A DNA stretch of 64,000 bases from a bacterium (GTDB lineage: Bacteria; DRYD01): NCBI GenBank assembly GCA_030549815.1, contig JAUQQQ010000006.1, forward strand, positions 19,474-83,473. The letters run 5' to 3'. Below the pieces are notes generated by a model. That model saw only the letters and a list, made by a program, of their open reading frames with translations. It ran no database searches and was not told where the DNA came from. Position 1 is the stretch's first letter. Every line of letters starts with the position of its first letter. Shown here in pieces: positions 17,705 through 45,371 of this stretch. The translations under genes and the position numbers were made by a program.

Positions 17705-19216
17705 TCATCTATATCTTTCAATGTCCATTTTTTTCACTTTCCTTTCTTTACTATCTATTACTATTCCTACCAAATATATTTCTTCTCTATCCAAATACTT
17801 CTCATAATATCTTTTCTCTTTTATTTGTTCTATTGCTCCTTCTTTATCTACTTTCAATTCTATTATATATACCTTCCCTTTACTTATCACTGTTAAATCT
17901 ATTCTTCCTATACTTGTTACATCTTCTGCTATCACTTCTAACCCACTTGACACTAACAATACATAAAACAATGCACAATAAAAACTCTCATATCTACCTA
18001 CATCTCTATACCATATGTTTGGTACACTTCCATATACCTGATTTAATACATTTTCTAATTCTAACAATTTACCTTCAACAAATATCTTCCTTACTTCTCT
18101 TATCCAACTTTTTTCTGACCAAATACTATCTCCTATATAACTATTTAATGCTACTTTTACCTCTTTGTTTGGATAACACAATCTATACTCTAACCAATCT
18201 TCTTCCTCTATCATCTCTTTTATTGTCAAATATCCTGTTTGAAATAATAATGCTTCTATCCTTATTTCTTCTATATCAAACATATCTAATACATTATCAT
18301 CTACTACTACCTCTTCTAAATTTGGTATGTAGTATCCCTTCTCTCTTATAACTTTTACTAAAAATTCGGGGTTGCCTGTTTTAAACCAATACGACCTATA
18401 TACCCTATTTTCCATATACAACAACACATCAAATGGATTATATATCCTTGAACCTAACCAACAATACCCATTGTACCATTCCCTTATTTTTTCCAATTCC
18501 TCTTCTCCCTTTATTAACTCCCCAAATACTTGTATTAATTCTTCTTCTGTATACCCACATATATCCCCGTATTCCTTATTCAAACTAATATCATTTAACT
18601 GATTTAATCCTGAAAACAAAGACACTTTTGCAAATTTACTTATCCCTGTTATAAATACAAAATGCAAATATTGATCCAGATCCTTCAAAACTGAATAAAA
18701 CTCCTTCAATTCCTTTCTAATTCTTTCTGCTTTTTCTCTATCCTCTATGTTATCTATTATTGCCTTATCGTATTCATCTACTAATAATACTACCTTCCTT
18801 CTATTTTTTCTATAAAGTCCTTTAACCAAATTCTCTAACATTGTTCCTATGCTTTCTCTTTCTTCTATTTCTACTTCCTCTTCCCTTGCTTTTTCCTTTA
18901 TTATTGATCTTACCCTATTCTTTAAGTCATCCACACTTAATGTATCTTTGACAAAAGATATTCTTACAACAGGATACTTTTCTTGCCAATTCCAATTGTT
19001 TTCCAAATACAAGCCTTCAAATAATTCTTTTTTTCCTTCAAAAGCAGACTTTAAAGTATCAACAAACAAGCTTTTTCCGAACCTTCGAGGACGCGATAAA
19101 AAGTAATATTTTCCTTCTTCCACTAATTTTTTTACAAAATATGTTTTATCTACATAATAGTAGCCTCCTGTCCTTATCTCTTCAAAACTACTTATTCCTA
19201 TCGGTAACTTCTTCAT
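17705..19216 (-). CDS. AAA-ATPase-like / PDDEXK nuclease-domain protein (AAA-ATPase_like + DUF1703)
   Basis: The N-terminal ATPase has the family-specific P-loop RPRRFGKSLFVDTL at residues 42-55, preceded by FEEIRTGGYYYVDKT. The Walker B-like strand is KVVLLVDEYDKAI (about 145). The C-terminal PD-(D/E)XK domain shows GRIDLTVISKGKVYIIELKVDK with the D-x(n)-E-L-K core (about 440-465). This family occurs in many near-identical copies in some bacteria and is suspected to be mobile or a conflict element; its activity is not settled. I choose ATG 19216 (503 aa): the AGAGGTG site would overlap the upstream GTG at 19225. It is flanked by direct repeats. Confidence 0.88.
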   Translation of the reverse strand: MKKLPIGISSFEEIRTGGYYYVDKTYFVKKLVEEGKYYFLSRPRRFGKSLFVDTLKSAFEGKKELFEGLYLENNWNWQEKYPVVRISFVKDTLSVDDLKNRVRSIIKEKAREEEVEIEERESIGTMLENLVKGLYRKNRRKVVLLVDEYDKAIIDNIEDREKAERIRKELKEFYSVLKDLDQYLHFVFITGISKFAKVSLFSGLNQLNDISLNKEYGDICGYTEEELIQVFGELIKGEEELEKIREWYNGYCWLGSRIYNPFDVLLYMENRVYRSYWFKTGNPEFLVKVIREKGYYIPNLEEVVVDDNVLDMFDIEEIRIEALLFQTGYLTIKEMIEEEDWLEYRLCYPNKEVKVALNSYIGDSIWSEKSWIREVRKIFVEGKLLELENVLNQVYGSVPNIWYRDVGRYESFYCALFYVLLVSSGLEVIAEDVTSIGRIDLTVISKGKVYIIELKVDKEGAIEQIKEKRYYEKYLDREEIYLVGIVIDSKERKVKKMDIERYR

Positions 19217-19454
19217 TTTCCGCACCTCTTTGTTTATTCTCTATATAGCTTTAAAACACCTGCTATCTAGTAGGAGTTTCATATCTGTGTTTGATGTTAA
19301 ACTTTATTCAGTAAAAACCAACAACAACAAACAATTGATTACAGTTTATATCTGAATTATTTACTATCCTCTTTTGACCCTTTTTTATATTTCTCTAATC
19401 AGAACAAATTTCCTATTTCCTATATTTCTGTTATTTCTGTATAATACAACAAAA
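19217..19454. other. Intergenic region upstream of the AAA-ATPase gene
   Basis: This 238-bp AT-rich spacer lies between the AAA-ATPase gene and the right direct repeat. It has the AAA gene's ribosome-binding site and an imperfect palindrome (CCTGCTA-TC-TAGTAGG, 19259-19274). No gene or clear promoter is visible. Confidence 0.5.
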
Positions 19455-30454: not shown

Positions 30455-31739
30455 GTATAGCGTAGAGTATTTAAACAACAATAATGAAATTAAAAAATTA
30501 ACTTTAGATGCGCAAGACGAACAAGAAGTTATTTCTAAAGTTTTATCAATGCCTGATACACAGGCTATCGTATCTGTTAGACCGAAAGGTTTGTTTGAAC
30601 CGAAAGGTTTATCTGAGTTAAATTTAAATATTAAAAATTTTTTTTCTGAAAGAAGGATAGATCTGTCTACTCTTTCTTTTATATGTCGTCAATTCAGTCA
30701 AATGTTTGAAGCAGGACTTCCTGTTAGTAGTATGATGAACATTTTTATTAAAACATTAAAAAAACCATATTTAAAATTAATTTTTGAAAATATAAGTAAT
30801 GATATTCAGGGAGGAGTTAGTTTCTATAAGGCTTTTGCTAAGTATGAAAACTACTTTGGTAGTTTGTTTGTCAATATGATAAAGGTTGGTGAAAGTAGTG
30901 GAAATTTAGATAAGATTTTTGCAAGTCTTGCTAATTATTATGAGTATTCATTATCTTTAAGGATAAAACTGGTTAATGCTTTTATTTATCCTCTTTTTGT
31001 TATGTTTGCGGTTTTGGTTGTTTGGGCTATTGCTATGTTTTTTGTTGTCCCAAAATTTAAACAAATTTTTATACAAATTCTTGGCAGTGAAAGAATTTAT
31101 AGAGAATTACCATTTATCACTGTTTTAATGCTTAGGCTTTCGGATCTTTATAATAGTGACATCATTTTGTTTAGTAAAAAAATAAAAGTGGGAGTTATTC
31201 TTTATCTTATTAAATTTAGTATCTTTGGTTTAATATATTATCTTTGGAAGAATATGGATTTTAGGAAATATTTTGAAAATATTTTATTGAAGATACCGGT
31301 TTTGTCGAAAGCTCTTAAATTTTATTATTGTTCGATTTTTTTTAAATCCTTGCATACTACGTTAACAAATGGAATATTGATAGTTCCTTCTTTAAGAATG
31401 TCTGCTAATGCGACAACGAGTGCTTTGTTTAAAAATAAAATCGAGGAAGTTATAGCAAGTATTGAGCAAGGAAAAAGACTTAGTGAAAGCTTGATAAATA
31501 CTCATCTGTTTGAACCTATAGTTGAGCAGATGTTAATAACAGGAGAAAGGAGTGGAAGCATATATAAAATGCTTGAAGAAGCAGATAAATTTTATACACG
31601 GGAAATGGAAATATTAATGGAAAGATTGATGAGGATGGTAGAACCAATGCTAATAGTTGTCATTGGTATTTTTGTTTTCTTCATCCTTCTTTCGTTATAT
31701 TTACCAATATTTATATTACCATCGAAAATAATGCGGTAA
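30447..31739 (+). CDS. pilC: Type IV pilus/type II secretion inner-membrane platform protein (PilC/GspF)
   Basis: PilC is the inner-membrane platform on which pilus ATPases work. The 430-aa protein has the two GspF domains: the first around ICRQFSQMFEAGLPVSSMMNIF (about residue 72), the second around YYCSIFFKSLHTTLTNGILIVPSL (about 290). Both contain the G-x-x-(I/V/L) step, and G-x-S-F-x-x-A and E-x-S-G-x-L/I features are kept (VGESSGNLDKIF; TGERSGSIYKML). Three membrane helices lie near 170, 255 and 405. An unusually long cytoplasmic N-terminus is typical. No pilB or pilT is nearby. It overlaps the genes on both sides (8 bp and 1 bp). Confidence 0.92.
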   Translation: MNKYSVEYLNNNNEIKKLTLDAQDEQEVISKVLSMPDTQAIVSVRPKGLFEPKGLSELNLNIKNFFSERRIDLSTLSFICRQFSQMFEAGLPVSSMMNIFIKTLKKPYLKLIFENISNDIQGGVSFYKAFAKYENYFGSLFVNMIKVGESSGNLDKIFASLANYYEYSLSLRIKLVNAFIYPLFVMFAVLVVWAIAMFFVVPKFKQIFIQILGSERIYRELPFITVLMLRLSDLYNSDIILFSKKIKVGVILYLIKFSIFGLIYYLWKNMDFRKYFENILLKIPVLSKALKFYYCSIFFKSLHTTLTNGILIVPSLRMSANATTSALFKNKIEEVIASIEQGKRLSESLINTHLFEPIVEQMLITGERSGSIYKMLEEADKFYTREMEILMERLMRMVEPMLIVVIGIFVFFILLSLYLPIFILPSKIMR

Positions 31740-32584
31740 TGAAAATAATTTCAAGTGGAAGTGATAGAAGTTTTATAATATTTAAAGATAAAGTTATCCT
31801 GATTGATCCAAATAAAGAAAATCTCAGAAAATACGTGGATATATGTTATTTTTTACAAAAGAAAAGAATAAACGTTCCAAAAATTTATAAATTTTACCCT
31901 AATTTTGTTATCCTTAAAAACCTTGGAAGAAATTTTTACTCTCAGATTAATAATGGATTGAAAGAAAAATATCTTGGTAAATACCAGAGAATACTAAAGG
32001 AAATATCTAAAGTTCATAAAATACCCCTTAATTCGGAAACTATTAAAGTATTCAATAAGTTTTTCGATTTAAGAGTTATAAGGTGGGAATGGCAGTATTT
32101 TCTTGAAAATTATGTTCTTAACTATAAAGGTTATTATGGGAAAAAACTTAATAAATGGTTGTATTTTTCAGAAGTTGTCATTAATAGTTGCCATAACATT
32201 TTTATGTATCATAAAAATTTAATACATAGGGACCTGCAATCGACTAATATTATATTCTATACTAAAAATAAACCTTTTTTTATAGATTTTCAAGGAATGA
32301 TGATAGGTAATTTTCTTTATGATTTGGCGTCTTTGATCGAAGACCCATATGTATCTTTACCTTATTGGTTTAAAAATAAACTTCTTGATTATTACTTTAA
32401 GATTAATAATTCATTATTGCCGTTAAGTAGATTTTATAAATATTACAAAATTCAGAGATTGGTTCAGGTTCTTGGTGCTTTTGCTTTTCTTTCTATACAT
32501 AAAAATAAAGAATTCTTTTTTAAACACCTTAAGAATTCCGAAATAGTACTACGAGATATTACGATAGAAGCAGATTATTTATGA
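31739..32584 (+). CDS. Aminoglycoside phosphotransferase-fold kinase, AmgK-like
   Basis: The 281-aa protein has a kinase-like fold with the APH catalytic loop LIHRDLQSTNIIFYT (about residue 160) and metal loop PFFIDFQGMMIGNFLYDLASLIEDPYVSLP. This H-R-D-x-(H/Q)-S-x-N plus DFQ-x-x-x-x-G-x-x-x-YDLASL-x-x-DPY pattern is the one seen in AmgK, which phosphorylates anomeric N-acetylmuramate/N-acetylglucosamine in peptidoglycan recycling. No murU-type partner is adjacent, so the substrate stays a hypothesis. Start overlaps the pilC stop by one base; stop overlaps rnc by 4 bp. Confidence 0.75.
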   Translation: MKIISSGSDRSFIIFKDKVILIDPNKENLRKYVDICYFLQKKRINVPKIYKFYPNFVILKNLGRNFYSQINNGLKEKYLGKYQRILKEISKVHKIPLNSETIKVFNKFFDLRVIRWEWQYFLENYVLNYKGYYGKKLNKWLYFSEVVINSCHNIFMYHKNLIHRDLQSTNIIFYTKNKPFFIDFQGMMIGNFLYDLASLIEDPYVSLPYWFKNKLLDYYFKINNSLLPLSRFYKYYKIQRLVQVLGAFAFLSIHKNKEFFFKHLKNSEIVLRDITIEADYL

Positions 32585-33303
32585 ACTTAAGCAAGGTAAT
32601 TAATAATATTGATAACATAGAGAATAAAATTCAGTATCACTTTAGAGATAAGCTTTTATTGATTCAATCTTTTATTCATAGCTCTGTTTGTAATGGTTTT
32701 TGTCAGATAGAATTGGATGGAGGGTCTGTGGTTATTGGTAATAATCAAAGATTGGAATTTTTGGGTGATGGAATTTTGGATTATATAGCAAGTGAGTATG
32801 TTTATTTGAAATATCCTACTTTCTCTGAAGATTTTCTTTCTTCTTATAAATCATTGATTGTGAATTATTATACACTTTACAAAGTTTGTGTTTCTTTGAG
32901 TTTACAAGAATTTTTGGTTTTTAACTATGAGAGTTTAGGTAGGAATAGTGCCAATATCAAGAATTATGGTGATATTGTTGAGGCTGTTATTGGAGCTATA
33001 TATTTAGACTCTCAAAATATGAACTGTGTTAAAGATTTTTTCTACAACATCGTATTAAGAATTTTTAATGATAATCTTGATGATATAGTTGAGAATTTGT
33101 TTGATTGGAAGGGATTTTTGCAGAGTTTGCTTCAAAAGAGGGGTATTGAAGTGCCTAAGTATAGTTTGATAGATAAAAATCAGGAAGGTTTTTATATAGT
33201 AGCGTATTTAAATGGTGTTGAGGTTAGCTCGGGTTTTGGAAGAACCAAAAAGGAAGCTGAAAAGCAAGCCGCACTGAATTTCATTAAAAAGATTGAACTG
33301 TAA
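32581..33303 (+). CDS. rnc: Ribonuclease III
   Basis: RNase III cuts double-stranded RNA in rRNA and mRNA processing. The 240-aa protein has the signature NQRLEFLGDGILDY (about residue 57) and the second active-site helix YGDIVEAVIGAIYLDS (about 130), with the catalytic Glu and Asp residues in place. The C-terminal dsRNA-binding domain (about 175-240) includes KGFLQSLLQKRG and GRTKKEAEKQAALNFI. Length is normal. The 3' end overlaps the convergent DUF3137-like operon by 20 bp, so antisense effects between the two transcripts are possible. Confidence 0.96.
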   Translation: MNLSKVINNIDNIENKIQYHFRDKLLLIQSFIHSSVCNGFCQIELDGGSVVIGNNQRLEFLGDGILDYIASEYVYLKYPTFSEDFLSSYKSLIVNYYTLYKVCVSLSLQEFLVFNYESLGRNSANIKNYGDIVEAVIGAIYLDSQNMNCVKDFFYNIVLRIFNDNLDDIVENLFDWKGFLQSLLQKRGIEVPKYSLIDKNQEGFYIVAYLNGVEVSSGFGRTKKEAEKQAALNFIKKIEL

Positions 33304-33994
33304 TTGATTTTATCAATTTAAATATTTCTTTTATTTCTTCGATAGCTTTATTTATATACTCGATTGAAATAGAATTTTGTGTATTATGTTTTAAAAATGG
33401 CTTTGTTCTATTTACTTTGACGTAAATGTAATTGGGCTCTTCTGAATAAAAAAAAGTCTCAAAATCCTTTATATTTTCTTGTTTTATTTTATCGATTGGT
33501 ATTTTTATAATTATTCCGTGGAATAGGGTTTTGGTTTCGTCGCGTATTTTGATAAGCTTTTGAATTTCTTCTTCCAAAATTGATTGTGCAAATTCAATAT
33601 TGATACTTTTGTATTCTATTTGAAAATAATTAAACTCGCGGTATATGGAAGATTCCGATGGACGAAATTTGAAAATTATAGGATCTTTAAAATTATTACT
33701 TTGCCAGTTATACTTGTTAATTTTAAATTCTTCGAATCCTTCCACTTTTTTTATATTTTCAAATAGTATTTTATTTATTTCTTCGGAATATTTGTCATCT
33801 ACAAGTAATATTTCTTTTATTGTAAATAACGCTAATAATAGTGGGAAAATGATGAAAAAGATGTTAATATTTAAGTGGATTAATATAATTATTGCAATTG
33901 CATTTGTAAAAGTAAAAACTTGACAAGATATGAGATTTTTTTGGTATTTCTTTCTTATGTTTTCTAATTCATTTATTATGATATCGTTTATCAT
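33284..33994 (-). CDS. DUF3137-like membrane protein, paralogue A
   Basis: The 236-aa protein starts with a helix (NDIIINELENIRKKY), has two adjacent membrane segments (about 25-65) and a soluble C-terminal domain. The domain has the pattern Y-x-x-I-E-x-A followed by a charged loop, then LFHGIIIKIP, which resembles DUF3137, where (F)xG ends a strand after a basic loop. Function is unknown. It is the last of five tandem relatives and the least typical, with FDF-poor loops. Its ATG overlaps the stop of paralogue B (ATGA). It shares about 75 near-identical residues with the decayed copy at 34.7-35.2 kb. Confidence 0.65.
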   Translation of the reverse strand: MINDIIINELENIRKKYQKNLISCQVFTFTNAIAIIILIHLNINIFFIIFPLLLALFTIKEILLVDDKYSEEINKILFENIKKVEGFEEFKINKYNWQSNNFKDPIIFKFRPSESSIYREFNYFQIEYKSINIEFAQSILEEEIQKLIKIRDETKTLFHGIIIKIPIDKIKQENIKDFETFFYSEEPNYIYVKVNRTKPFLKHNTQNSISIEYINKAIEEIKEIFKLIKSITVQSF

Positions 33995-34698
33995 GTTATT
34001 ACTATTTCTCTAATAATAGAGAAAGCTTTACTTATTTCTTCTATTTTTTCTTTGATATCTTTTTCTGATATTTTTCTGAAAATGTTAAATTCGAGGAATA
34101 ATGATTTTGTCTCTATTTTCACGTATATATGATTGGGGTTTTGTGGTATGGAAAATATGAAATAAGATTCATTTGTTACAAAATTTTGTTTTGTTAGTTG
34201 TTTTGGTATTTTTATTAATATTCCATTGAATAGTGGTACTATTTTTGTTCTTCTTTTTCCTTCACTATAGTATGATTCTATTTTGTATATCCTACATTCA
34301 GCTAATTCTATTTTTTGGTTTTTGTATTCTATTTCTAAATAGTCTTCTTCGTGACAATCCGTTGATGAAGGATACAAAAATAATGATACTTCCCTAAAGG
34401 TGTTACTGTGTGGAGAATATTTTTTTATAGTAAATTCATTAAATTCATCTACTTTTTTTATTACATTGAACAAGCAATTTTTTATTTCAAAAGAATATGA
34501 TTTTTGGAATGTTGGTATTACAAACAATAAAGATGCAGTAAAAAAACAACTGAAGCATATAAAATGTACAATACCGAATAGAAATGATAGAAATAGTGTC
34601 AGCAAAATAATCAAAATAATAGAGAAAAGATATAAAGAAAGCTTTCTAATATTATTATTCCTTATTTTTTCTAATTCATAGATAATGATTTCATTCAT
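33991..34698 (-). CDS. DUF3137-like membrane protein, paralogue B
   Basis: Starting at ATG 34698, which has a GGAGG site 8 bp upstream (the upstream ATG at 34719 would bypass it), the protein is 235 aa. It has an N-terminal helix, two membrane segments (about 20-65) and a soluble domain: EEDYLEIEYKNQKIELAEC, a basic GKRRTK loop, then PLFNGILIKIPKQL. This is close to the DUF3137 pattern. It is very similar to paralogue B2 at 35164-35886 (long identical stretches such as LTKQNFVTNESYF), so the two arose by recent tandem duplication. Confidence 0.65.
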   Translation of the reverse strand: MNEIIIYELEKIRNNNIRKLSLYLFSIILIILLTLFLSFLFGIVHFICFSCFFTASLLFVIPTFQKSYSFEIKNCLFNVIKKVDEFNEFTIKKYSPHSNTFREVSLFLYPSSTDCHEEDYLEIEYKNQKIELAECRIYKIESYYSEGKRRTKIVPLFNGILIKIPKQLTKQNFVTNESYFIFSIPQNPNHIYVKIETKSLFLEFNIFRKISEKDIKEKIEEISKAFSIIREIVIT

Positions 34699-35167
34699 TA
34701 TTTTGCCTCCATTATGCATTTTTTTACGATTGTTAGAATTTCTTTTATTTGTTCCAAGAATTCTTCTAAATTTTGTTGGTTTATTTTTTTAGGATATTAA
34801 TTTCAAACAGGTTTTTTATTTTATTTTTAACACTTCTTTTTATGGTTTGATTACGCAAGTTTTCAGAATCCAAAATAACAAAAACATTTTCGTTTTCTTT
34901 TACTATTATATTTTGATAAATGTTTTGAGGATTAAATATTTTTTCTGGTATTTTTATGATTATTCCTTTGTATTCTATTTGAAAATAATTGAACTCGCGG
35001 TATCTGTAAGATTTAGACGGACGAAATTTGAAAATTATAGGATCTTTAAAATTATTACTTTGCCAGTTATATTTGTTAATTTTAAATTCTTCGAATTCTT
35101 CCACTTTTTTTATATTTTCAAATAGGAAAATGTTTTCTAATTCATTTATTATGATATCGTTTATCAT
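34698..35167 (-). pseudogene. Mosaic, decayed DUF3137-like paralogue (A2)
   Basis: The intact part (34781-35167, 128 aa) matches paralogue A at its start (NDIIINELENI) and at KINKYNWQSNNFKDPIIFKF, but lacks both membrane segments and the middle of the soluble domain, through two in-frame deletions. From GIIIKIPEKIFNPQN on it matches paralogue C instead, so it is a hybrid. The frame stops after NILKK because an A-tract has seven bases where paralogue C has eight. Adding one A restores a C-like ending (QQNLEEFLEQIKEIL) up to a stop that overlaps paralogue B's ATG. Confidence 0.75.
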
Positions 35168-35886
35168 GTTATTACTATTTCTCTAATAATAGAGAAAACT
35201 TTACTTATTTCTTCTATTTTTTCTTTGATATCTTTTTCTGATATTTTTCTGAAAATGTTAAATTCGAGGAATTCCGATTTTGAATTTATTTTTATGTATA
35301 TATGATTGGGGTTTTGTGGTATGGAAAATATGAAATAAGATTCATTTGTTACAAAATTTTGCTTTGTTAATTGTTTTGGTATCTTTATTAATATACCTTT
35401 AAATAGGGTTATTGTTCTTGTTCTTCGTTTTCCTCCACTATAGTATGATTCTGTTTTTTCTATTTTACATTCAGCTAATTCTATTTTTTGGTTTTTGTAT
35501 TCTATTTCTAAATAGTCTTCTTCATAACAATTTGTTGATGAAGGATATAGAAAAACGGAAACATCTCTAAAAATAGAACTATGAGGTAAATATTTATTAA
35601 TTGTAAATTCATGAAATTCATCTATCTTATTTGTTATCTTGAATAAATAATTTTTTATTTGGAAAGAATATGATTTTTCAATGAAGGATATTATAAGGGC
35701 TGGAATTAATATTAACAAAATAGCGACGATAAATAAAATAAATATAGGATCTATACTATAAATGTAGTTAAATGAGAATGATATTATTAAGACGATGATA
35801 AAAAAGTAAAAAAGAAGATATAGAATGAGTTTTTTAAAATTATCTTTTCTTACTTTTTCAAATTCATAAATAATAATTTCATTCAT
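35164..35886 (-). CDS. DUF3137-like membrane protein, paralogue B2
   Basis: The 240-aa protein is a near-duplicate of paralogue B. It has two strong membrane segments (about 20-65), then the soluble part with EEDYLEIEYKNQKIELAEC, a GGKRRTRT loop and TLFKGILIKIP. The N-terminal membrane part differs from B much more than the soluble part does, so selection or gene conversion acts on the latter. The stop overlaps the start of the mosaic copy A2 by 4 bp. The ORF order B2-A2-B-A shows that a two-gene unit was duplicated. Confidence 0.65.
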   Translation of the reverse strand: MNEIIIYEFEKVRKDNFKKLILYLLFYFFIIVLIISFSFNYIYSIDPIFILFIVAILLILIPALIISFIEKSYSFQIKNYLFKITNKIDEFHEFTINKYLPHSSIFRDVSVFLYPSSTNCYEEDYLEIEYKNQKIELAECKIEKTESYYSGGKRRTRTITLFKGILIKIPKQLTKQNFVTNESYFIFSIPQNPNHIYIKINSKSEFLEFNIFRKISEKDIKEKIEEISKVFSIIREIVIT

Positions 35887-35889
35887 TTT

Positions 35890-36633
35890 TTACTCCTGTG
35901 TTGTATATCTTTTTATGATTGTTAGGATTGATTTTATTTGTTCAAGAAAGTTATTCAAGTTTTCCTGAGTTATTTTTTTTAGAATATTAATTTTTATATT
36001 TTGATGATGCAAGGTTTCTGAATCTAATAGTATGAAAGCGTTTTCGTTTTCTTTTACTATTATATTTTGGGGGATGTTTTGGGGATTAAATATTTTCTCT
36101 GGTATTTTTATGATTATTCCTTTGAAAATTTCTTTTTTAATTTTGTATTTTCCTGGTCCTGTAATTCTGAATACTTTTACTTTGGCTAATTCTATTATGT
36201 TTTCTTTATATTGTATTTGGAGGAAATCTTCTTCTATTACTTTGATGGGTTCTTGATTCTCTTCTCTAAAGTATTTCTTTAAAAAATTTCTAAAGAATGA
36301 AGAGTAGGATTTATAGGTGATTATTTTAAATTCATCGTATTCAGGAATTTTTTTTTGCAGGTTGAAGATGATTTTTTTTATTTCTTCGGAGTATTCTTTT
36401 GTTAAGTTGAAAGGTATTGAAATAGTAAACGCAAAAGTTAATATAGCTAAGAAAGCAAACAAAGAAGTTAGTTCTTCCCATATTTTATCGTGTAAACTCA
36501 ATTGCAGAGCTTTCCAAAAAATAAAGAGAATTATCATAAGTAATATTACCCCGACTAAAATTGAAATAATTATCTTCTTAATATAGTTTTTTCTTATGTT
36601 TTCCAGTTCTGAAAGTATGTATTCATCTAACAT
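35890..36633 (-). CDS. DUF3137-like membrane protein, paralogue C
   Basis: This 247-aa protein is the most complete of the group. It has an N-terminal helix (DEYILSELENIRKNY), two membrane segments (about 20-45 and 55-78) and a soluble domain with EEDFLQIQYKENIIELAKVKVF, a basic GKYKIKK loop and EIFKGIIIKIPEKIF. A C-terminal amphipathic helix (ENLNNFLEQIKSILTIIKRY) follows. It donated sequence to the mosaic copy A2. It lies 36 bp after the HExxH gene and 3 bp before B2, within the same minus-strand operon. Confidence 0.68.
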   Translation of the reverse strand: MLDEYILSELENIRKNYIKKIIISILVGVILLMIILFIFWKALQLSLHDKIWEELTSLFAFLAILTFAFTISIPFNLTKEYSEEIKKIIFNLQKKIPEYDEFKIITYKSYSSFFRNFLKKYFREENQEPIKVIEEDFLQIQYKENIIELAKVKVFRITGPGKYKIKKEIFKGIIIKIPEKIFNPQNIPQNIIVKENENAFILLDSETLHHQNIKINILKKITQENLNNFLEQIKSILTIIKRYTTQE

Positions 36634-36669
36634 ATTCCATCTATTTCTTCCAAGGATGATTGGTAGTAT

Positions 36670-39048
36670 CTACAGTAAAATATTTATGACAAAATCTGAA
36701 AAAAGTCCTTCATTTGAATCTGAAGATGATCCTATGTTTAAATTAGAGTAAAATAGTTCAAGTAAATCTTTTACCTTTACCTGCTTGATTTGTTTTTTAT
36801 TTTCTTGGTTAGTATTTTCTTCTGCAGTTTGATTAATGGGAAATGAAGTAATTATTATGTTTCTTTGGTCAAAACAAAAATTAACATTCATTTCTCTGAT
36901 TGTATTCTTTATTTTTGTTTTTACATGATCAATTATCTCTGAATAATTTTGGTTAATATTATTTGTTATATATCTTGTGCTTAATCTTAATTTTATGATG
37001 AATTTTTCTAAAAATACATTTTCAATTATATCTTTGCCTATGAATACCTCTATTTCTGGCTTTAGGATTAGTGTAATATTAAAATTTTGGAAAAAGATGT
37101 TGTAAATTTGATTAAGATTGATTTGTTTTTTATCATCGTTGTTTGAGATAATGAAGATGTAGCATAAGTCGTGCCATTCTAAGGAGAATGTAGGAATCAT
37201 ATCACATTGCCCAATTTTGCTCTTTATTTCTTCAATTATCTTTTCAAAAATTTCGTCAACTTTTTGATTATTATTTGATGTATTGATTTTAAATTTTACG
37301 AAAATTAGTATTTTATCATTTATGTTTTCCAAATTTTTTTCAAGATTTTGTATGTTGGTAAAAGTTGTTAAATCGAAAGTTTCGCGAAAGTATTGGACTC
37401 CTTCCTCTATATGTATATTGTTTTTTTCAGCCTTTTCTTTTATGAACAAATTTAGAGAGGAGTAATATCCTATGCAGAATGCCATATTTTTTGCAGAAAT
37501 AATTTGAAAAATATTTTTATCACTATTGTTGTTATTTTTATCACTATCATAGCGAATCCTATAATAATTAACTGATATTACTTTTTGATTAATAGCTTGA
37601 TTTTTATCGATGTTTTTGTTTAGGTAATTTTTAAAGATATTTTCGTAAAATAAAAATACAAAATATCTACCTTCTCCTTCAATATCAAAAAAGGATTTAT
37701 TTGTGATATCTATTGTATTTTCTTTGTTTGTTAATTCATTATACTTTTCTAATAATTTTTCGTAGAAAAAACAGAGATAATCAAAGTAAATGAAGTATAA
37801 TTTGCTATTGTTTTTTATGATAAATAAATCTTTGAAAATTCCAGAGTGTTTTTTTATGAATTTGTTAATAATTCTCTCTGAGATGTAAAAAACTTTTTCT
37901 TCAAACGAAAAGATGTTTTGGTATCTAATATCAGATGAAAAAACATAATATAAGGATTTTAATAGTTCTATTATATCATCTTTTATTTTGTCTAATTTTA
38001 AGTGGTCTTCTTGTTTGAATAATTTTTTTATATTGTCATTTTTGCAAAAATGGGATGCGAAGGTTAATCTCAAAAACCAGCTTCTTGTTATTATTTGGTT
38101 ATTTTCAGAATTTTCATCAAGCAAGAAAAGTTCAACGAATATAGGGACAAGGTATAGAACCCCAAAAACATTACATAGTAATGAATCAATTAGTATGTCT
38201 TCTATAGAATTAGGCACAATTCCAGAAAAATCGGTGTCAATTAAATAGTAGCTAATTGCGTGTCTTATAATATCTGAGTATTTTAGTAAATCTTCAAACA
38301 TTTTGGGTAAATTTTCGTTTCTGCTAACTGAAATGGCTGAATGTATAATTTCATGAAGAAAGATTATCCATTTAAATCTTGTATAGGGTAGAAAATAGTC
38401 AGTGCTTACACATAGAACATAATTTCTATCCTGGATGTATTTATCAAAATTTATGCTTGAAAAAAAACTCCAAAAAAATAAACTTTGAATCTTATCAAAT
38501 TGAATTTTACCAAATTTATCCTTGAATAATATTTTCATAATTTCTTCGCAAAATTCTTCTAAGAAAAAGTGTTTTTTTGTAGATTCTCTGAAACTACTTA
38601 TTTTAGGACTTGGATAATAACTGTAGTAGCTTTCTAATACGTTAAAAATTTTCTTTTGCCAAAAATCAAGTTTTCTAACTATATTGGCTATTATTTCTCT
38701 GCTTTCTGAAATATTATCTATGATATAATATGTAAGACCATAATTATAAAAATTTTTTCCTTCTCTGAGATCTGATTTGAGCAAAAATAAGTGATTTTTT
38801 ATCATTTTTTCCTTATTTTTGAGATTTTCTATTTCTTCTTCAACAGGTAGATAGTTTTTTAATTTGCCAAGCAGATATTCTAACTGTATTTTACTTGCTA
38901 AATTTTCACCCCAGTTATCTTTTTTTATTGTAAAAAAATCTAATATTTCCTTCAAATAATTTTTTTCTTGTTCAAGAAGATTTCTTTTATAGGTAATATC
39001 CGAAAGAATGAGGCTTAGAGATCTGTAGATTTTTTCCTTTATTACCAT
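36670..39048 (-). CDS. Large protein with an HExxH metalloprotease-like motif
   Basis: I do not recognise the family of this 792-aa protein. Residues 232-236 are HEIIH, placed in a hydrophobic helix (KWIIFLHEIIHSAIS) exactly as in zincin metallopeptidases. About 47 residues on is EDILIDSLLCNVFG (Glu283, Asp288), a plausible third zinc ligand region. The N-terminal 130 residues are helical and charged, likely a coiled coil. The C-terminal 300 residues alternate strands and helices and contain an Asn/Asp-rich loop near 490. No signal peptide or membrane helix is present. Its partners are a membrane protein 3 bp upstream and the DUF3137-like array downstream, which suggests action at the inner face of the membrane. 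Confidence 0.7.
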   Translation of the reverse strand: MVIKEKIYRSLSLILSDITYKRNLLEQEKNYLKEILDFFTIKKDNWGENLASKIQLEYLLGKLKNYLPVEEEIENLKNKEKMIKNHLFLLKSDLREGKNFYNYGLTYYIIDNISESREIIANIVRKLDFWQKKIFNVLESYYSYYPSPKISSFRESTKKHFFLEEFCEEIMKILFKDKFGKIQFDKIQSLFFWSFFSSINFDKYIQDRNYVLCVSTDYFLPYTRFKWIIFLHEIIHSAISVSRNENLPKMFEDLLKYSDIIRHAISYYLIDTDFSGIVPNSIEDILIDSLLCNVFGVLYLVPIFVELFLLDENSENNQIITRSWFLRLTFASHFCKNDNIKKLFKQEDHLKLDKIKDDIIELLKSLYYVFSSDIRYQNIFSFEEKVFYISERIINKFIKKHSGIFKDLFIIKNNSKLYFIYFDYLCFFYEKLLEKYNELTNKENTIDITNKSFFDIEGEGRYFVFLFYENIFKNYLNKNIDKNQAINQKVISVNYYRIRYDSDKNNNNSDKNIFQIISAKNMAFCIGYYSSLNLFIKEKAEKNNIHIEEGVQYFRETFDLTTFTNIQNLEKNLENINDKILIFVKFKINTSNNNQKVDEIFEKIIEEIKSKIGQCDMIPTFSLEWHDLCYIFIISNNDDKKQINLNQIYNIFFQNFNITLILKPEIEVFIGKDIIENVFLEKFIIKLRLSTRYITNNINQNYSEIIDHVKTKIKNTIREMNVNFCFDQRNIIITSFPINQTAEENTNQENKKQIKQVKVKDLLELFYSNLNIGSSSDSNEGLFSDFVINILL

Positions 39049-39051
39049 TAT

Positions 39052-39798
39052 TTATTTCCAAAAAAGAAACTTGATTAAATCAAATTCCTTGAACAATAAT
39101 TTTTTATCTTTGCTTATAGCACAAAGATATTGTAATAGTTTTCTATCTATTTCCAATAACTCTACCTTACTTTTGCTTTCTATGAAAATGACTAAGTTTT
39201 TAAGGATTATGTTTAAAACATTAATCTTTATGAAAGGAAGCAAAATAATTAGGAAAACAAAGAAAAAACTTAAAATAATATCGTTGAAAGTATGGAATAA
39301 TGGATTAGTTTTAGTTTGTGTATTTAGAAAAGGAAGAATTGTGAGTAAAGTTAGAAAAGTTATGCAAATTAACTCAGGAAAAATTATTAACTTTACTATT
39401 ATAGATTTTGACATTTCTTCAAAAAGAGATAAAGCAAAGATTATAAAATTTTTCCTATTTTGTCCAAATTTTGATCTATTATTATCAAAATTAATTTTTC
39501 CTAAAACTTTATCTCTTTTTTTTACTATTACAAAACCTTTGTATTCTTCTATATTAGTATTTTCTATCTCTTTGAATATTTGTTGATTCGAAATATAAAA
39601 TATACTTAAAATTATGCCTGAAATTATCAAAAAAAGAGGGAATGGAAGTAAGGGTTTTAAAATTATAACCAAAAACAGAAAAATAAAAATAATGTTAACT
39701 GTGTAAAAGAACGTATAAATTATCCCTGGCTTTTCTATAAATTTAATACTTAAGAACAAATCTACTTTACTCTTTGGTTTAAGATTAAAAGAACTCAC
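39052..39798 (-). CDS. Multi-pass membrane protein of unknown function
   Basis: The 248-aa protein has four or five hydrophobic segments: a close pair at about 30-70, one at about 120-145 and a pair at about 150-205. A soluble loop around residues 75-115 contains EEYKGFVIVKKRDKVLGK. It has no resemblance to a transporter family that I can name. It is the first gene of the minus-strand operon, 3 bp before the HExxH gene, so the two are probably made together. It could anchor the HExxH protein or be its substrate; the sequence does not decide. Confidence 0.6.
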   Translation of the reverse strand: MSSFNLKPKSKVDLFLSIKFIEKPGIIYTFFYTVNIIFIFLFLVIILKPLLPFPLFLIISGIILSIFYISNQQIFKEIENTNIEEYKGFVIVKKRDKVLGKINFDNNRSKFGQNRKNFIIFALSLFEEMSKSIIVKLIIFPELICITFLTLLTILPFLNTQTKTNPLFHTFNDIILSFFFVFLIILLPFIKINVLNIILKNLVIFIESKSKVELLEIDRKLLQYLCAISKDKKLLFKEFDLIKFLFWK

Positions 39799-39833
39799 TT
39801 ACTTTTTTCTTATTACTTTTGTAGTTAAAGCTT

Positions 39834-40271
39834 TTATCTTTTTACTTTAACAATGGTTGTATCATTAAATCCTTTGCCTGAGTAATCATATTCTTCTTTA
39901 AATTTGAACATACTTCCAGGTCTTGCTTTGAAACCGTCTGCTATGGCTTGCATTGTTAATTGGATAAGCTCAACACTCTCAACTTTCTCATCTAAACTCT
40001 TCATATCTCTCTTGATGTTTTCTACATCTTGTTTTAAAACGTTAACATCTTGTTTTAAGATATTAACATCTTGTTTTAAGATATTAACATCTTGTTTTAA
40101 GATATTAACATCTTGTTTTAAGATATTAACATCTTGTTTTAAGATATTAACATCTTGTTTTAAAACGTTAACATCTTGTTTTAAATTTTGAATCTCTTCC
40201 TCTATTTTATCTAATTTATCTAATTTTTTCTTTATTTCACTTAATTCTTGCATGATTTGCTCGATATTCAC
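39834..40271 (-). CDS. Coiled-coil protein built on LKQDV heptads
   Basis: From the GTG at 40271 (AGGAAGGTG site just upstream) the protein is 145 aa. The N-terminal 25 residues form a heptad helix. Eight near-identical heptads follow, LKQDVNI or LKQDVNV, with Leu and Val in a/d positions, ideal for a parallel coiled coil. The last 50 residues (LIQLTMQAIADGFKARPGSMFKF and so on) are a distinct domain. An upstream ATG at 40307 would add 12 residues but lacks a ribosome-binding site. It is 36 bp upstream of the membrane-protein gene on the same strand, and may head the operon. Confidence 0.65.
   Translation of the reverse strand: MNIEQIMQELSEIKKKLDKLDKIEEEIQNLKQDVNVLKQDVNILKQDVNILKQDVNILKQDVNILKQDVNILKQDVNVLKQDVENIKRDMKSLDEKVESVELIQLTMQAIADGFKARPGSMFKFKEEYDYSGKGFNDTTIVKVKR
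40024..40191. repeat. Eight tandem copies of a 21-bp unit
   Basis: The plus-strand unit ACATCTTGTTTTAAGATATT (20 of its 21 bases) repeats eight times with a period of exactly 21 bp. Units 2-6 are identical; units 1 and 7 share a variant end (AAAACGTT) and unit 8 differs at its end. Each unit encodes one heptad of the coiled-coil gene, so unit gain or loss keeps the frame. Confidence 0.95.
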
Positions 40272-40387
40272 ATAAATCACCTTCCTATATAATTTTTTGT
40301 TTTGCAAATACTTCCATTTCCCATAATTAATTTTCTATGAATTACTTATATTCTCCTTTTGGTAAAAATTTTTTATATAAAATTTTT

Positions 40388-40417
40388 TTGAAGGGGGAAA
40401 TAAAATGGGAATATAAT
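40388..40417 (+). promoter_or_regulatory. Promoter of the coiled-coil/kinase operon
   Basis: TTGAAG (40388-40393) and TATAAT (40412-40417) are 18 bp apart. Transcription would start near 40424, leaving a leader of about 28 nt before the ATG at 40452. It faces away from the LKQDV gene in the 180-bp divergent gap. Confidence 0.65.
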
Positions 40418-40451
40418 TTTAAAATAGGGTTTAATAATAGAAAAAGTTGAT

Positions 40452-42230
40452 ATGAGCTCGATAAGTTTTGGAAGGTTTTATTACCATCAGTATTTCATAA
40501 ATAATGAAAAAACCTTCCTAGCAAAAATTGACAACACTTTACGTGAAATAAAAAACTTAATAAATACTGAGATCAAAGAATTATCTGGAATTATTCATGA
40601 GATAAAAAGTTATTTTGATTATGAAAAGGAAGATTTCAAAAGAAAGCATACTCTCGATTTTTTCAATAGTCATAATTACGACTCATGGTATAATTCAAAA
40701 TTGAAAAGTGTCAATGAAATAGGAATAAAAATAAAAAGACTAATAAAAGATTTATCGTTAGAAGGAATTATTCCTAATAGCAAACAAAACTGCCAAAAAT
40801 TAATTAAATTACTCCAAGAGTATCAATCAGATAGTCTTAAATTTACAAAAACTATTGAGTCATTGCAAAGCAAGATGGAAAAATTTGAATTACAAGAAAG
40901 AATGAACAATATAAATGAAAAGATTAAAAGTTTACAGATAAAAATTAATAATCCTTATATTTACGAATTTCTTAATTTGTTAAGTTTTGCTTTCAAAGAA
41001 GTAACCCAGGAATTTGATCCTTTTTCTTTTGACTATAACCAAAAGAAAGACAAGAAATTAAAAAGAGAATTATCTAATATTGAAAATTTCCTTGAAAATT
41101 TTGAACAGAGAATCACTAATTTTGAAAAATTACCGCTGGATAAAAAAGAAATGATATACAAACTTATTCAATTCTTTGAAAAATTTGGTGAACCAATTTA
41201 TGAATACAAAGTTTTACAAAATTTTGTAAATAAACTTAAGAATGAAAAGTATGGGATTGAGATTGAAGAGCAATTTGCTTTAATAAAATCGCAACTTACT
41301 GAAAAAACTATTAAAATAAACACACAAGAAATTCCAGAAAAATCAAAAGAAGATGAATTAGGAATTAAAGTAAAAAATTTAAAACGAAAAATAAAGGAAA
41401 AATTCCCACAGTTTTACGATGAAATTGAAAATAAATATTCAAATATTAAGGATTTAAAATTGCTCCTTGATTCTTTAGAGTTTGAATTTTTGAAATTAAA
41501 AAAACAGATTGTGGATGACTTTATTTATAGGCAAGAAATTGAAAATATCAAGAAAGAATTAATGGAGTTTTTCAAATCATTTTCAAATTTTCCTGAAATT
41601 GGTAAACCTGTTTTTCTTGAATTCAAAACAAATTTTGAAGACATTATGAAGTCCATCGATCATTATTTGGCAAAGAAAAATGTGGAAGAAAAAGATTATA
41701 TGTTAATAAAAAATAATGCTGATGAATTTATTCAAAAACTTGAAAGATTCTTATATCACTTAGAAAAAAAGAAAAAATCACAAGAATTTAAAAACATTAT
41801 AAAAGAAAAACTTAATGCAATTGGATACAGTGTGATCTTTGTTAATGATAAGGATGTGAGCTTTCTGGATACACCCTTTGATTTTGTTTATAAAATAATG
41901 TTGAAAATCGAGGATGATATTATTAAAGTCCAGTTTGTTAGAATTCTTGATGATAGTGAGACCTTGACGGAATACGAAAAACAAAAAGATATATACTATG
42001 CTGAAAGATGGTGCAATGATTATAAGAATTTATTAAATTTATTAGAAAAAAACGGGATTGTTATAAAACCTGAAAACATCATAGAACCCAATCAAAGAAT
42101 GAATTATTTATATATTTCTGAGCTTCCAGAATACCTTAGAAAACAGGCTTATGAATACTTTAAATCCTATCAAGGTAAGAAAACTAAAAGTATATCTGAA
42201 CAGCAAAAATTTCAAGAAAAAATAGAATAA
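40452..42230 (+). CDS. 592-aa coiled-coil protein with a distinct C-terminal domain
   Basis: Family not recognised. Residues 1-30 contain SISFGRFYYHQYF. From about 25 to 440 the chain is highly charged helix with heptad stretches (for example MEKFELQERMNNINEKIKSLQIKI). Residues about 445-580 form a compact alpha/beta domain: IIKEKLNAIGYSVIFVND, DFVYKIMLKIEDDIIKVQFVRIL, YAERWCNDYKNLLNLLEKNG. It has no membrane segment. The kinase gene follows at 15 bp in the same operon, so it may be a scaffold or a substrate of the kinase. The ribosome-binding site is weak, unlike that of the kinase (GGGGAGAAAGAGG). Confidence 0.7.
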   Translation: MSSISFGRFYYHQYFINNEKTFLAKIDNTLREIKNLINTEIKELSGIIHEIKSYFDYEKEDFKRKHTLDFFNSHNYDSWYNSKLKSVNEIGIKIKRLIKDLSLEGIIPNSKQNCQKLIKLLQEYQSDSLKFTKTIESLQSKMEKFELQERMNNINEKIKSLQIKINNPYIYEFLNLLSFAFKEVTQEFDPFSFDYNQKKDKKLKRELSNIENFLENFEQRITNFEKLPLDKKEMIYKLIQFFEKFGEPIYEYKVLQNFVNKLKNEKYGIEIEEQFALIKSQLTEKTIKINTQEIPEKSKEDELGIKVKNLKRKIKEKFPQFYDEIENKYSNIKDLKLLLDSLEFEFLKLKKQIVDDFIYRQEIENIKKELMEFFKSFSNFPEIGKPVFLEFKTNFEDIMKSIDHYLAKKNVEEKDYMLIKNNADEFIQKLERFLYHLEKKKKSQEFKNIIKEKLNAIGYSVIFVNDKDVSFLDTPFDFVYKIMLKIEDDIIKVQFVRILDDSETLTEYEKQKDIYYAERWCNDYKNLLNLLEKNGIVIKPENIIEPNQRMNYLYISELPEYLRKQAYEYFKSYQGKKTKSISEQQKFQEKIE

Positions 42231-42245
42231 TAGGGGAGAAAGAGG

Positions 42246-45200
42246 ATGGAGGAAAATGAAAAGGAAGAAAAAAATCCGGAAGAGACAACAACATTAGAGC
42301 AAACTGTATTAGAAAAAACTATTCATCAATCCAAGATATTACAAAAAGAAGAACGAACAACTAAAAACAAAGAAGAGAGTGAGTTAGAAGGAGATTTTCA
42401 TGAATACAAAATTGAAAAACAATTGGATTTTTTAGGAGCAGAAGCTGATTACTTTCTTTTAAGTAAAAATAACCAGTATTTTTTCTTAAAATATTATCGC
42501 AGGAATTATAAGCCAAGAAATTTTGAAAAAATACTTCAACTATCAAAAGAATTTCCGCAGCATATCATCCAAATTGTAGATTATGGGGAGCATAAAGGAA
42601 GGTTTTTTGAAATTCAGGAATACGCCGAATGTAACCTTAAAGATTTCTGTATTAAATATGAAGTTCAAAAGAATATCGAGTTGATAGAAAAAATAATTAG
42701 TGAAATTACGGATGCCCTTTCTGCTCTACATAAAAGTAATATAATTCATAGGGATATAAAGCCACAGAATATCCTTGTTAGAAAGATGGATCCATTGGAT
42801 CTTGTTTTGACAGATTTTGGGATTTCCTCTTTTGTAGAAGAAGATGTATCCAAAGTTTTGACAGAGAATGTTAGGGGAACTTTCCTTTACAGTGCTCCCG
42901 AGACATTTTCGGGATTTTTTGGAAAAGAAGCAGATTATTGGTCATTTGGAATGGTATTACTTGAAATAATAACAGGTCAAAATCCTTTTGCTTTACTTCC
43001 GCGGCAAGTAATAATGAATAACTTATTTACCCGTGAGGTTCCCATACCTGAAGATATTGATGAAATTGTTTATGGACAGAAAAAAACAAATAGAAAATCT
43101 TTGAAAAAATTATTAATGGGACTACTTACAAGAGATCCAAGCTTAAGATGGAAGGATAAAGAAATATATACGTGGTTGAAAGGAGATGAAAATATAGAAG
43201 TTTTCTATGCTTTAAATACTGAAGATGAAAAAGTTAAAGAATACATAAATGAAGGAATAAAAAATGTGCAGAGTATAAAAGAATGGGTAAAGTTAGGGAT
43301 AACACCAAAATATGCAAAAGTTTTTGATAAAAAATCAATAAAACCACAAGAAATAGAAAAATTAATTTCCAAGAATATAAGCCTTGATGAAATAATAGTT
43401 TTTGTTGAAAAGGGTTATGAGGTAAATCAAATAATAGAAATATTGGATAATGGAATAAGTTTAAAAGAATATCTCGTTTGGCTTGAAAAGGGTTTTACTT
43501 TACAAGAAATTATAAAATACAAGAATAGTAATCTTAGTTTAGATGAGGCATTGGAATGGAAAAAACAATTGGCAAATTTTAACCAAAGCTTATTGAAAAT
43601 ACCTGAGAATGAGATTATAGAATGGATAAAAAATGGATTTAATGAAGAGGAGATAATTGAATGGAAACAGACGAATCTTAAACCTGAAATTGCAAAGGAA
43701 TGGAAAAAATTAAGATTGTCTGCTATTGAAACAATTAAAATAAAACAAAAAGGTATTTCATTGGCAGAAGTTATAGAATGGAAGGAAGAATTTGAAAAGA
43801 ACAATTTAAAATTTATTGTCAGTGATTTCTTAGAATGGCGTCAAGTTAAGGTTTCTTTCCAGAATGCTATAAAATTGATAAAAAGCAAAGTTCCTCCAAA
43901 TATTGCACAGGATTTATTGGCAAGAGGCTTAAATGTTCAAGATATTATACAATTGGTAAATGAAAATATTCCATTGGTTTCATTAAAAAAATGGATAGAT
44001 ATGGGTTTTAGTTTGAATGATATTCCATATCTAATAAAGGGTAATCTGAGGGAAGAACAAATTCAGAGAATATTGGGAATGGGAATAAAAAAGGAATCCA
44101 TTTTACAGTTAGTAAAAGGAAATATTTCATTAGATACTATAGAAGAAATTATCAATCAAGGTTTTACTGTTAAGGATTTAGAGGATTTTCTACAATTACT
44201 TATTTTTGGTGTTTCCGTAAAGGAAATAGTAGAATGGAAGAAAAAAGGGTTTAGTGGATATGATGCTTTGGGATGGAAGAAACATGGATTTACTCCACAG
44301 GAAGCAGGGAAATGGAAAAATGAAAAATTTAATCCTTCAACGGCAAGATTATTAAAGGAGAATGGATTGTCAGTGGAGGAAGCAAAAGAATGGATATCTT
44401 GTGGATTTAATATTGATGAAATAGTGGAACTAAAGAGAAGAAATTTTTCACTGTTGGAAGCTGTTAAATTAAGAAAAGAATTATCAGATGCTGGAATATC
44501 TATAGAGGAAAAATTTGAATTGGAGATGTATGGTTTTACTATCTCTGAGGCAAAGAAATGGAAGGATGTAGGATTTAGTATTACAGAAGCTTATCAATGG
44601 AAAGAAATGAGTTTTGGACCTATTGATGCAATGCAGTGGAAAAAAATAGGCTTTGACCCTAATGAATCGATAAAGTGGAAAAGAGCAGGATTTACTCCTA
44701 ATGAAGCAATACAGTGGATAAAGAAAGATTTTTCCTTAGAGCAAGCAAAAAAATGGAAAGAAAAAGGTTTTAATCCTGTAGATGCAAGAAAGCAAGAGTT
44801 GGAAATGTGGATATCACAAGGATTTACTAAGGATGAAATAAGTGAATGGATAAAGTGTGGATTTGACGTAATTAATGCTAAACTTTGGAAGGAAAAGGGA
44901 TTTACAGCAAGGGGAGCTATGGAATGGAAAAATAATGGGTTTTATTTAGAGGAAGCTTTTGAATGGTCTGGATTAAAGAATAATAATAATGCAGCAAGTG
45001 GATGCCTATTATTACTTTTATCTTTATTATTTCCACCTCTTTTGATTTTTTTCATTTTTTATTCTATTTCTTATCCTTTTAATCTTGATCTCTTAATTGG
45101 ATTTTCCCCTTTGGAAGCAAAAGAATGGAAAAAATATGGATTCAATTGGGAACAAGCAGCAAAACTGCAAAAATCAAATGTTAGTCTTGAGGAAGCTGTA

Positions 45201-45371
45201 AAATGGAAAAATAATGGATTTTCTGTGGAAGAAACAATAAAATATAAAACGAAAGGTTATGATATAACCCGAGCAAGGAAAGAAAAAAAACTGTTGACAA
45301 TTGTTTGGGTGGTTGTTTTTCTCTTATATTTCTGTTTTTTATATTTCTTTTGCAAATTTCTTGGTTGGTAA
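42246..45371 (+). CDS. Membrane Ser/Thr protein kinase with ~44 copies of a 13-residue repeat
   Basis: Residues 50-315 are a eukaryotic-like kinase: Lys82 in FFLKYYRR, catalytic loop IIHRDIKPQNIL (His168-Arg-Asp170), metal loop TDFGISS (Asp190) and GTFLYSAPET. All catalytic residues are present. From residue 352 to about 1010 the chain is an array of about 44 units of 13 residues, consensus F-(S/T)-x-x-E-A-x-x-W-K-x-x-G. The S/T-x-x-E start is a helix capping box and the Gly a helix end, so each unit is one short helix in a solenoid. A hydrophobic stretch (919-952) interrupts the array five units before its end, and a final membrane helix (1014-1036) closes the protein. Confidence 0.85.
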   Translation: MEENEKEEKNPEETTTLEQTVLEKTIHQSKILQKEERTTKNKEESELEGDFHEYKIEKQLDFLGAEADYFLLSKNNQYFFLKYYRRNYKPRNFEKILQLSKEFPQHIIQIVDYGEHKGRFFEIQEYAECNLKDFCIKYEVQKNIELIEKIISEITDALSALHKSNIIHRDIKPQNILVRKMDPLDLVLTDFGISSFVEEDVSKVLTENVRGTFLYSAPETFSGFFGKEADYWSFGMVLLEIITGQNPFALLPRQVIMNNLFTREVPIPEDIDEIVYGQKKTNRKSLKKLLMGLLTRDPSLRWKDKEIYTWLKGDENIEVFYALNTEDEKVKEYINEGIKNVQSIKEWVKLGITPKYAKVFDKKSIKPQEIEKLISKNISLDEIIVFVEKGYEVNQIIEILDNGISLKEYLVWLEKGFTLQEIIKYKNSNLSLDEALEWKKQLANFNQSLLKIPENEIIEWIKNGFNEEEIIEWKQTNLKPEIAKEWKKLRLSAIETIKIKQKGISLAEVIEWKEEFEKNNLKFIVSDFLEWRQVKVSFQNAIKLIKSKVPPNIAQDLLARGLNVQDIIQLVNENIPLVSLKKWIDMGFSLNDIPYLIKGNLREEQIQRILGMGIKKESILQLVKGNISLDTIEEIINQGFTVKDLEDFLQLLIFGVSVKEIVEWKKKGFSGYDALGWKKHGFTPQEAGKWKNEKFNPSTARLLKENGLSVEEAKEWISCGFNIDEIVELKRRNFSLLEAVKLRKELSDAGISIEEKFELEMYGFTISEAKKWKDVGFSITEAYQWKEMSFGPIDAMQWKKIGFDPNESIKWKRAGFTPNEAIQWIKKDFSLEQAKKWKEKGFNPVDARKQELEMWISQGFTKDEISEWIKCGFDVINAKLWKEKGFTARGAMEWKNNGFYLEEAFEWSGLKNNNNAASGCLLLLLSLLFPPLLIFFIFYSISYPFNLDLLIGFSPLEAKEWKKYGFNWEQAAKLQKSNVSLEEAVKWKNNGFSVEETIKYKTKGYDITRARKEKKLLTIVWVVVFLLYFCFLYFFCKFLGW

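Follow-up and report, generated by a model that had tools for sequence, protein, structure and literature searches.

The stretch between rnc and dxs in a hot-spring bacterium of the Calescibacterium lineage (genome G000; 1.59 Mb, 90% complete) raises the question whether its genes form one system, as proposed in a first-pass annotation that described them as a membrane-signalling or conflict island. The stretch lies in the window, by which we mean the whole 64,000 nucleotides analyzed, on contig C10 of this genome. Every open reading frame named in the annotation was found in its place. Between the end of rnc (33303) and the start of dxs (45486), the minus strand carries five DUF3137-like genes, a gene for a 792-aa protein with an HExxH motif, a gene for a 248-aa membrane protein and an LKQDV coiled-coil gene. 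The plus strand encodes a 592-aa coiled-coil protein (CC592) and a 1041-aa kinase (KIN1041), with 15 bp between the two genes, and the divergent operons have a common intergenic region of 144 bp. Our analysis does not support a unified twelve-kb conflict system. Instead, the block is probably made up of two units, namely CC592-KIN1041 on the plus strand and a lineage-specific operon on the minus strand.

Comparison of the slot between rnc and dxs showed that close relatives lack the block, a check proposed in the first-pass annotation. The slot contains a single DUF3137-like gene, convergent with rnc, in the congeners G002 and G003, and no gene is found there in the congener G001. The neighbours of dxs are different ones in the sister genus (G004, G005). 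With one or no DUF3137-like gene at this position in the congeners, the 12-kb block represents an expansion seen only in G000, where it has to be considered that several of the relatives are drafts with a completeness of 71–88% and that absences there are weaker than presences. An APH-like kinase gene (31739–32584, plus strand) is located between pilC and rnc and is kept in G001 and G002.

Counted from rnc, the minus strand operon carries the DUF3137-like gene D1 (33284..33994), the positional orthologue of the single rnc-dxs gene in G002 and G003, followed by the paralogues D2 (33991..34719; an internal ATG 7 codons later is an alternative start), D3t (34781..35167), D4 (35164..35886) and D5 (35890..36633). 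Five genes are indeed present, but the description as five DUF3137-like membrane paralogues holds for four full-length members only, since D3t is a truncated mosaic of 128 aa without transmembrane helices. The family label has to be used with care as well. The D proteins appear to resemble DUF3137 (PF11335) in an N-terminal transmembrane stretch and a beta-rich domain and match the C-terminal end of the profile weakly, but the best score is 18.3 bits against a Pfam gathering cut-off of 26.1 and only two of the six members match at all. D1 comprises a transmembrane stretch, a beta-rich domain and a helix at the C-terminus; an AF2 model (alignment A1, pLDDT 79) showed two long N-terminal helices alongside the latter two elements. 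A fold search with this model gave no PDB match at E < 0.001, with rows for the soluble domain at Z < 6; the rows were dominated by the two helices, and TtfA (6t84; Z 5.6 over 107 residues) is a weak lead. Good matches of the DUF3137-like profile were confined to the genus, to which the family appears essentially restricted; none was found in Ca. C. nevadense, a single draft genome, so that this shows little.

Within this operon, the proposed tandem duplication and mosaic copying could be traced in detail. Bases 1–38 and 43–222 of D3t match D1 at 95–100% and bases 198–331 match D5 at 85%, which makes it a mosaic deletion copy. D2 and D4 share 87% nucleotide identity over 537 bases with a dN/dS of 0.31, therefore indicating purifying selection, and these duplicates look kept by selection. 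The family diversifies by duplication and mosaic copying, and the cluster provides a compact case of such a lineage-specific expansion at a fixed chromosomal slot. The sole further DUF3137-like cluster seen is that of G002 (L090, 486–3133), where one gene string comprises a membrane-anchored degenerate kinase of another type (HRD replaced by FVD, DFG by SFA), a NUDIX gene and two DUF3137-like genes.

Upstream of D5, the operon contains the gene of the HExxH protein (36670..39048, minus strand), an orphan and possible zincin. Its HEIIH motif occurs once, at residue 232; since 0.9% of same-composition shuffles also contain an HExxH motif, its presence by itself counts as modest evidence. Together with SIEDILID at 281, where E283 is a candidate third ligand, it would be compatible with a zincin. 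Relatives were found in 0/385 other genomes, no match was obtained in viral contigs, phages or plasmids, and searches of Pfam, NCBIfam, PHROGs, PADLOC and PDB sequences gave no match of weight. A single-sequence AF2 prediction reached a pLDDT of 36 and is unusable as a model. The neighbouring gene MEM248 (39052..39798, minus strand) encodes the 248-aa membrane protein with four transmembrane segments (hydrophobic stretches 24–72, 129–161 and 166–207), for which 0/6 kin genomes contained a relative. Next to it, the LKQDV gene (39834..40307, minus strand) harbours a tandem repeat array of 21-bp units at 40024–40184 (7.7 copies, 95% matches), which encodes the LKQDV heptads and could vary in copy number from strain to strain. 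The ancestral element of this operon would be a DUF3137-like gene in the rnc-dxs slot, around which duplication and mosaic copying enlarged the set; an orphan possible metalloprotease and a four-transmembrane protein also belong to it. The operon may share its membrane setting with the kinase.

On the opposite strand, KIN1041 (42246..45371) consists of an N-terminal tail with TxxE motifs (residues 1–53), a kinase domain (54–310) and a region of WKxxGF repeats at about 340–1010. The repeat unit is 13 residues long, with autocorrelation peaks at 13, 26 and 39. With 116.2 bits against PF00069 (cut-off 31.7), KIN1041 passes as a Ser/Thr protein kinase, and its catalytic motifs are intact (K82, HRDIKPQN, DFG, APE). 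In a search with the decapeptide repeat profile PF25296 (cut-off 45), it stayed under the cut-off with 30.2 bits, and two proteins of Ca. C. nevadense reached 93.6 and 66.2 bits. Hydropathy places transmembrane stretches only at 915–951 and 1013–1041, and related kinases of G000, G002, G004, G005 and G262 likewise carry them at the C-terminus. In a tree whose alignment was seeded with the same subfamily, the kinases that carry these tails group together to the exclusion of other Ser/Thr kinases (support 0.94).

The N-terminal tails of this clade show a conserved short acidic motif. Among ten non-redundant kinases, T-x-x-[D/E] was present in 10/10 tails with 20 occurrences against 8.06 expected from shuffles (p 5e-5), and [DE]xTxx[DE] occurred 18 times against 1.65 expected; because the tails share ancestry, the p-value from shuffling exaggerates their independence, and the result describes motif conservation rather than ten independent observations. 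Phosphothreonine is recognized by FHA domains (PMC3953482); for the FHA1 domain of Rad53, a title cited in PMC3146460 names a complex with pTXXD. Judged from its sequence, the tail motif would correspond to the pT+3-acidic pattern bound by some FHA domains.

CC592 (40452..42230, plus strand), a putative coiled-coil adaptor without transmembrane segment by hydropathy, has a conserved C-terminal domain at about residues 440–560 with a WCxDY motif. This domain was found in all six searched genomes of its taxonomic family and also in two genomes outside the phylum; its sister in the tree is CC605 of G002 (support 1.0). A match of CC592 to the effector-associated domain PF19961 was weak (16.3 against 27 bits) and was set aside.

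Recurrent linkage of the components was observed for the kinase and the 592-aa protein. In G262, which belongs outside the phylum, a kinase of the KIN1041 clade comes directly after each of two CC genes, in the same order as in the window, with gaps of 11 and 8 bp, and the kinase domains gave matches with E-values of 1e-58 and 2e-52. In Ca. C. nevadense, a kinase with WKxxGF repeats is located at a contig end (L149), and another contig (L086) begins inside a repeat protein that is followed by genes for CC, PP2C, AAA_2, radical SAM and FHA (zinc-ribbon) proteins; the two pieces belong to two contigs that are not joined. AAA_2 and FHA genes precede CC605 in G002; CC478, a paralogue, has AAA and FHA genes ahead of it in G000, G002 and G003; and a CC gene of G272 overlaps an AAA620-like gene. 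G000 itself encodes FHA and AAA+ proteins at other loci (C9, C5) away from the window, and in its FHA99 the GR, SRKH and NG residues are conserved on visual inspection. The single-AAA ATPase is kin to the D2 half of ClpB and, by NCBIfam cut-offs, is neither ClpB, ClpA nor ClpV. Outside Ca. C. nevadense, none of these loci carries every component. Based on the linkage in G262 (twice), Ca. C. nevadense, G002 and G272, CC592-KIN1041 is a real, recurrent module. The same linkage, which the first-pass annotation had also envisaged for the HExxH protein and the DUF3137-like proteins, did not extend to these or to MEM248: the kinase-CC loci fetched from Ca. C. nevadense, G262 and G004 contained no homologue of any of them nearby.

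We consider it fairly probable that CC592-KIN1041 is the two-gene piece of a recurrent membrane Ser/Thr phospho-signalling module. The membrane-anchored kinase would phosphorylate threonines in T-x-x-[D/E] motifs, probably including those of its own N-terminal tail, and FHA proteins would bind the phosphorylated threonines. We infer that the CC protein uses its conserved C-terminal domain to link the kinase with FHA readers and the ClpB-like AAA+ ATPase; genes for both lie beside its relatives elsewhere, including locus C9 of G000. Where present, a PP2C phosphatase could reset the module. The roles of writer, reader and eraser are assigned by homology, and that of the ATPase remains a prediction.

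The closest parallel is the threonine phosphorylation pathway of type VI secretion (T6SS), which comprises the kinase PpkA, the PP2C phosphatase PppA, Fha and the AAA+ ATPase ClpV (PMC3953482). Similarly, Ca. C. nevadense encodes a membrane Ser/Thr kinase, PP2C, FHA and a Clp-type AAA+ protein together. However, the module has an extra coiled-coil partner and WKxxGF repeats, and its single-AAA_2 ATPase scores 220–226 bits against a ClpV1 cut-off of 885. In the underlying comparison with ClpV1/TssH (TIGR03345, cut-off 884.95), the single-AAA forms obtained 220 and 226 bits and a two-AAA form 618.7 bits, all below the cut-off. As the ATPase fails the ClpV test, the module is on present evidence not a member of the T6SS pathway but may work like it; T6SS structural genes were not seen within the fetched loci. 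PknB/Stk1-type kinases with an Stp1/IreP PP2C share the kinase domain, and the PP2C of Ca. C. nevadense matches Stp1_PP2C (150.9 bits, cut-off 230). In contrast to these kinases, KIN1041 has no PASTA match and reaches 94.8 bits against a cut-off of 450 for the PknB PASTA kinase family (NF033483), its transmembrane segments are C-terminal around an internal repeat region, and the module adds FHA, AAA+ and coiled-coil partners. In NTP-dependent conflict systems, kinase genes adjoin PP2C genes and some kinases have transmembrane helices (PMC7159879), but we saw neither the vWA domains nor the GAP1-N2 GTPases that are the partners in those systems. No account of an operon like this turned up in a literature search, which is not proof of absence.

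Three other explanations of the locus were weighed. The kinase, the scaffold, an HExxH protease released as an effector by phosphorylation and DUF3137-like sensors might all belong to one integrated membrane-signalling or conflict system, to which the common 144-bp intergenic region of the divergent operons, the fast duplication and mosaic copying and the G002 string, in which a degenerate kinase, a NUDIX gene and a second DUF3137-like pair lie together, would lend themselves. The HExxH protein and MEM248 were, however, found nowhere else (among 385 other and six kin genomes, respectively), the kinase-CC loci fetched from these lineages (Ca. C. nevadense, G262 and G004) have no DUF3137-like, HExxH or MEM248 homologue nearby, and the DUF3137-like genes of G002 and G003 sit at rnc-dxs without a kinase. 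We regard such a system as unlikely. Cooperation of all genes, as suggested by the first-pass annotation, narrows to the CC592-KIN1041 pair, and for a role in conflict we found no positive evidence: similarities to defence families are limited to generic kinase-domain and coiled-coil matches, and the HExxH protein is unmatched in viral contigs, phages and plasmids. An anti-phage defence kinase locus of the PD-T4-6, MAD6 or BREX PglW type is very improbable. PADLOC and NCBIfam do report matches (e.g. mad6, E 9e-36), but these cover the kinase domain only, the scores are far from the cut-offs (MAD6, NF047741: 72.7 against 460; PglW: 32.1 against 990), no other defence component is present and the phage matches of KIN1041 are again generic kinase-domain matches.

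It is also conceivable, though rather doubtful, that genes unrelated to one another, either decaying or of slight use, have accumulated at rnc-dxs as a hotspot, where CC592 and KIN1041 met by chance. Recurrence of the CC-kinase adjacency outside the phylum and the dN/dS of 0.31 for D2/D4 argue against this explanation, which would account for the patchy content among the congeners and the truncated mosaic D3t. The GC content of 21–26% in all block genes except the kinase gene could be read in the same direction, but as a sign of foreign origin it was rejected: DUF3137-like and CC genes of the congeners are similarly low in GC, so that GC is no marker of foreign DNA here.

Beyond the two-unit reading of a CC592-KIN1041 module next to a lineage-specific operon, a bolder and rather improbable one would be an undescribed cross-phylum phosphothreonine module in which membrane kinases bearing TxxD/E tails would be coupled by a CC adaptor family to FHA readers and a ClpB-D2-like AAA+ remodeller, as a T6SS-independent functional counterpart of the threonine phosphorylation pathway, here controlling a lineage-specific membrane protease operon. 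The phospho-signalling module itself, if borne out, would define a Ser/Thr phospho-signalling pathway for a phylum represented almost exclusively by metagenomes and single cells, place a kinase/phosphatase/FHA/AAA+ circuit in use outside type VI secretion and make the coiled-coil family usable as a tag for finding the same module elsewhere.

Besides that, further kinases were noted. On contig C1 of G000 (L093, 7852–12190), two neighbouring membrane kinases of the KIN1041 clade closely resemble each other and lack the repeats. G004 carries three paralogous repeat-kinases (L064, 9652–11429; L065, 9673–12131; L066, 2959–5306) that share a frame change of one base immediately ahead of the APE motif (GATAAGCACCGG). 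The frame is open on either side of it, with a dN/dS of 0.33–0.47, and a programmed frameshift is possible; for one kinase pair, a dS of 0.21 upstream against 0.68 downstream suggests gene conversion. Elsewhere in the window, a gene at 17705–19225 (minus strand) beginning MRKMKKLPIGISSFEEI sits in a stretch with a GC skew near -0.6, and several copies or fragments of it are found in G000, G002, G003 and G004.
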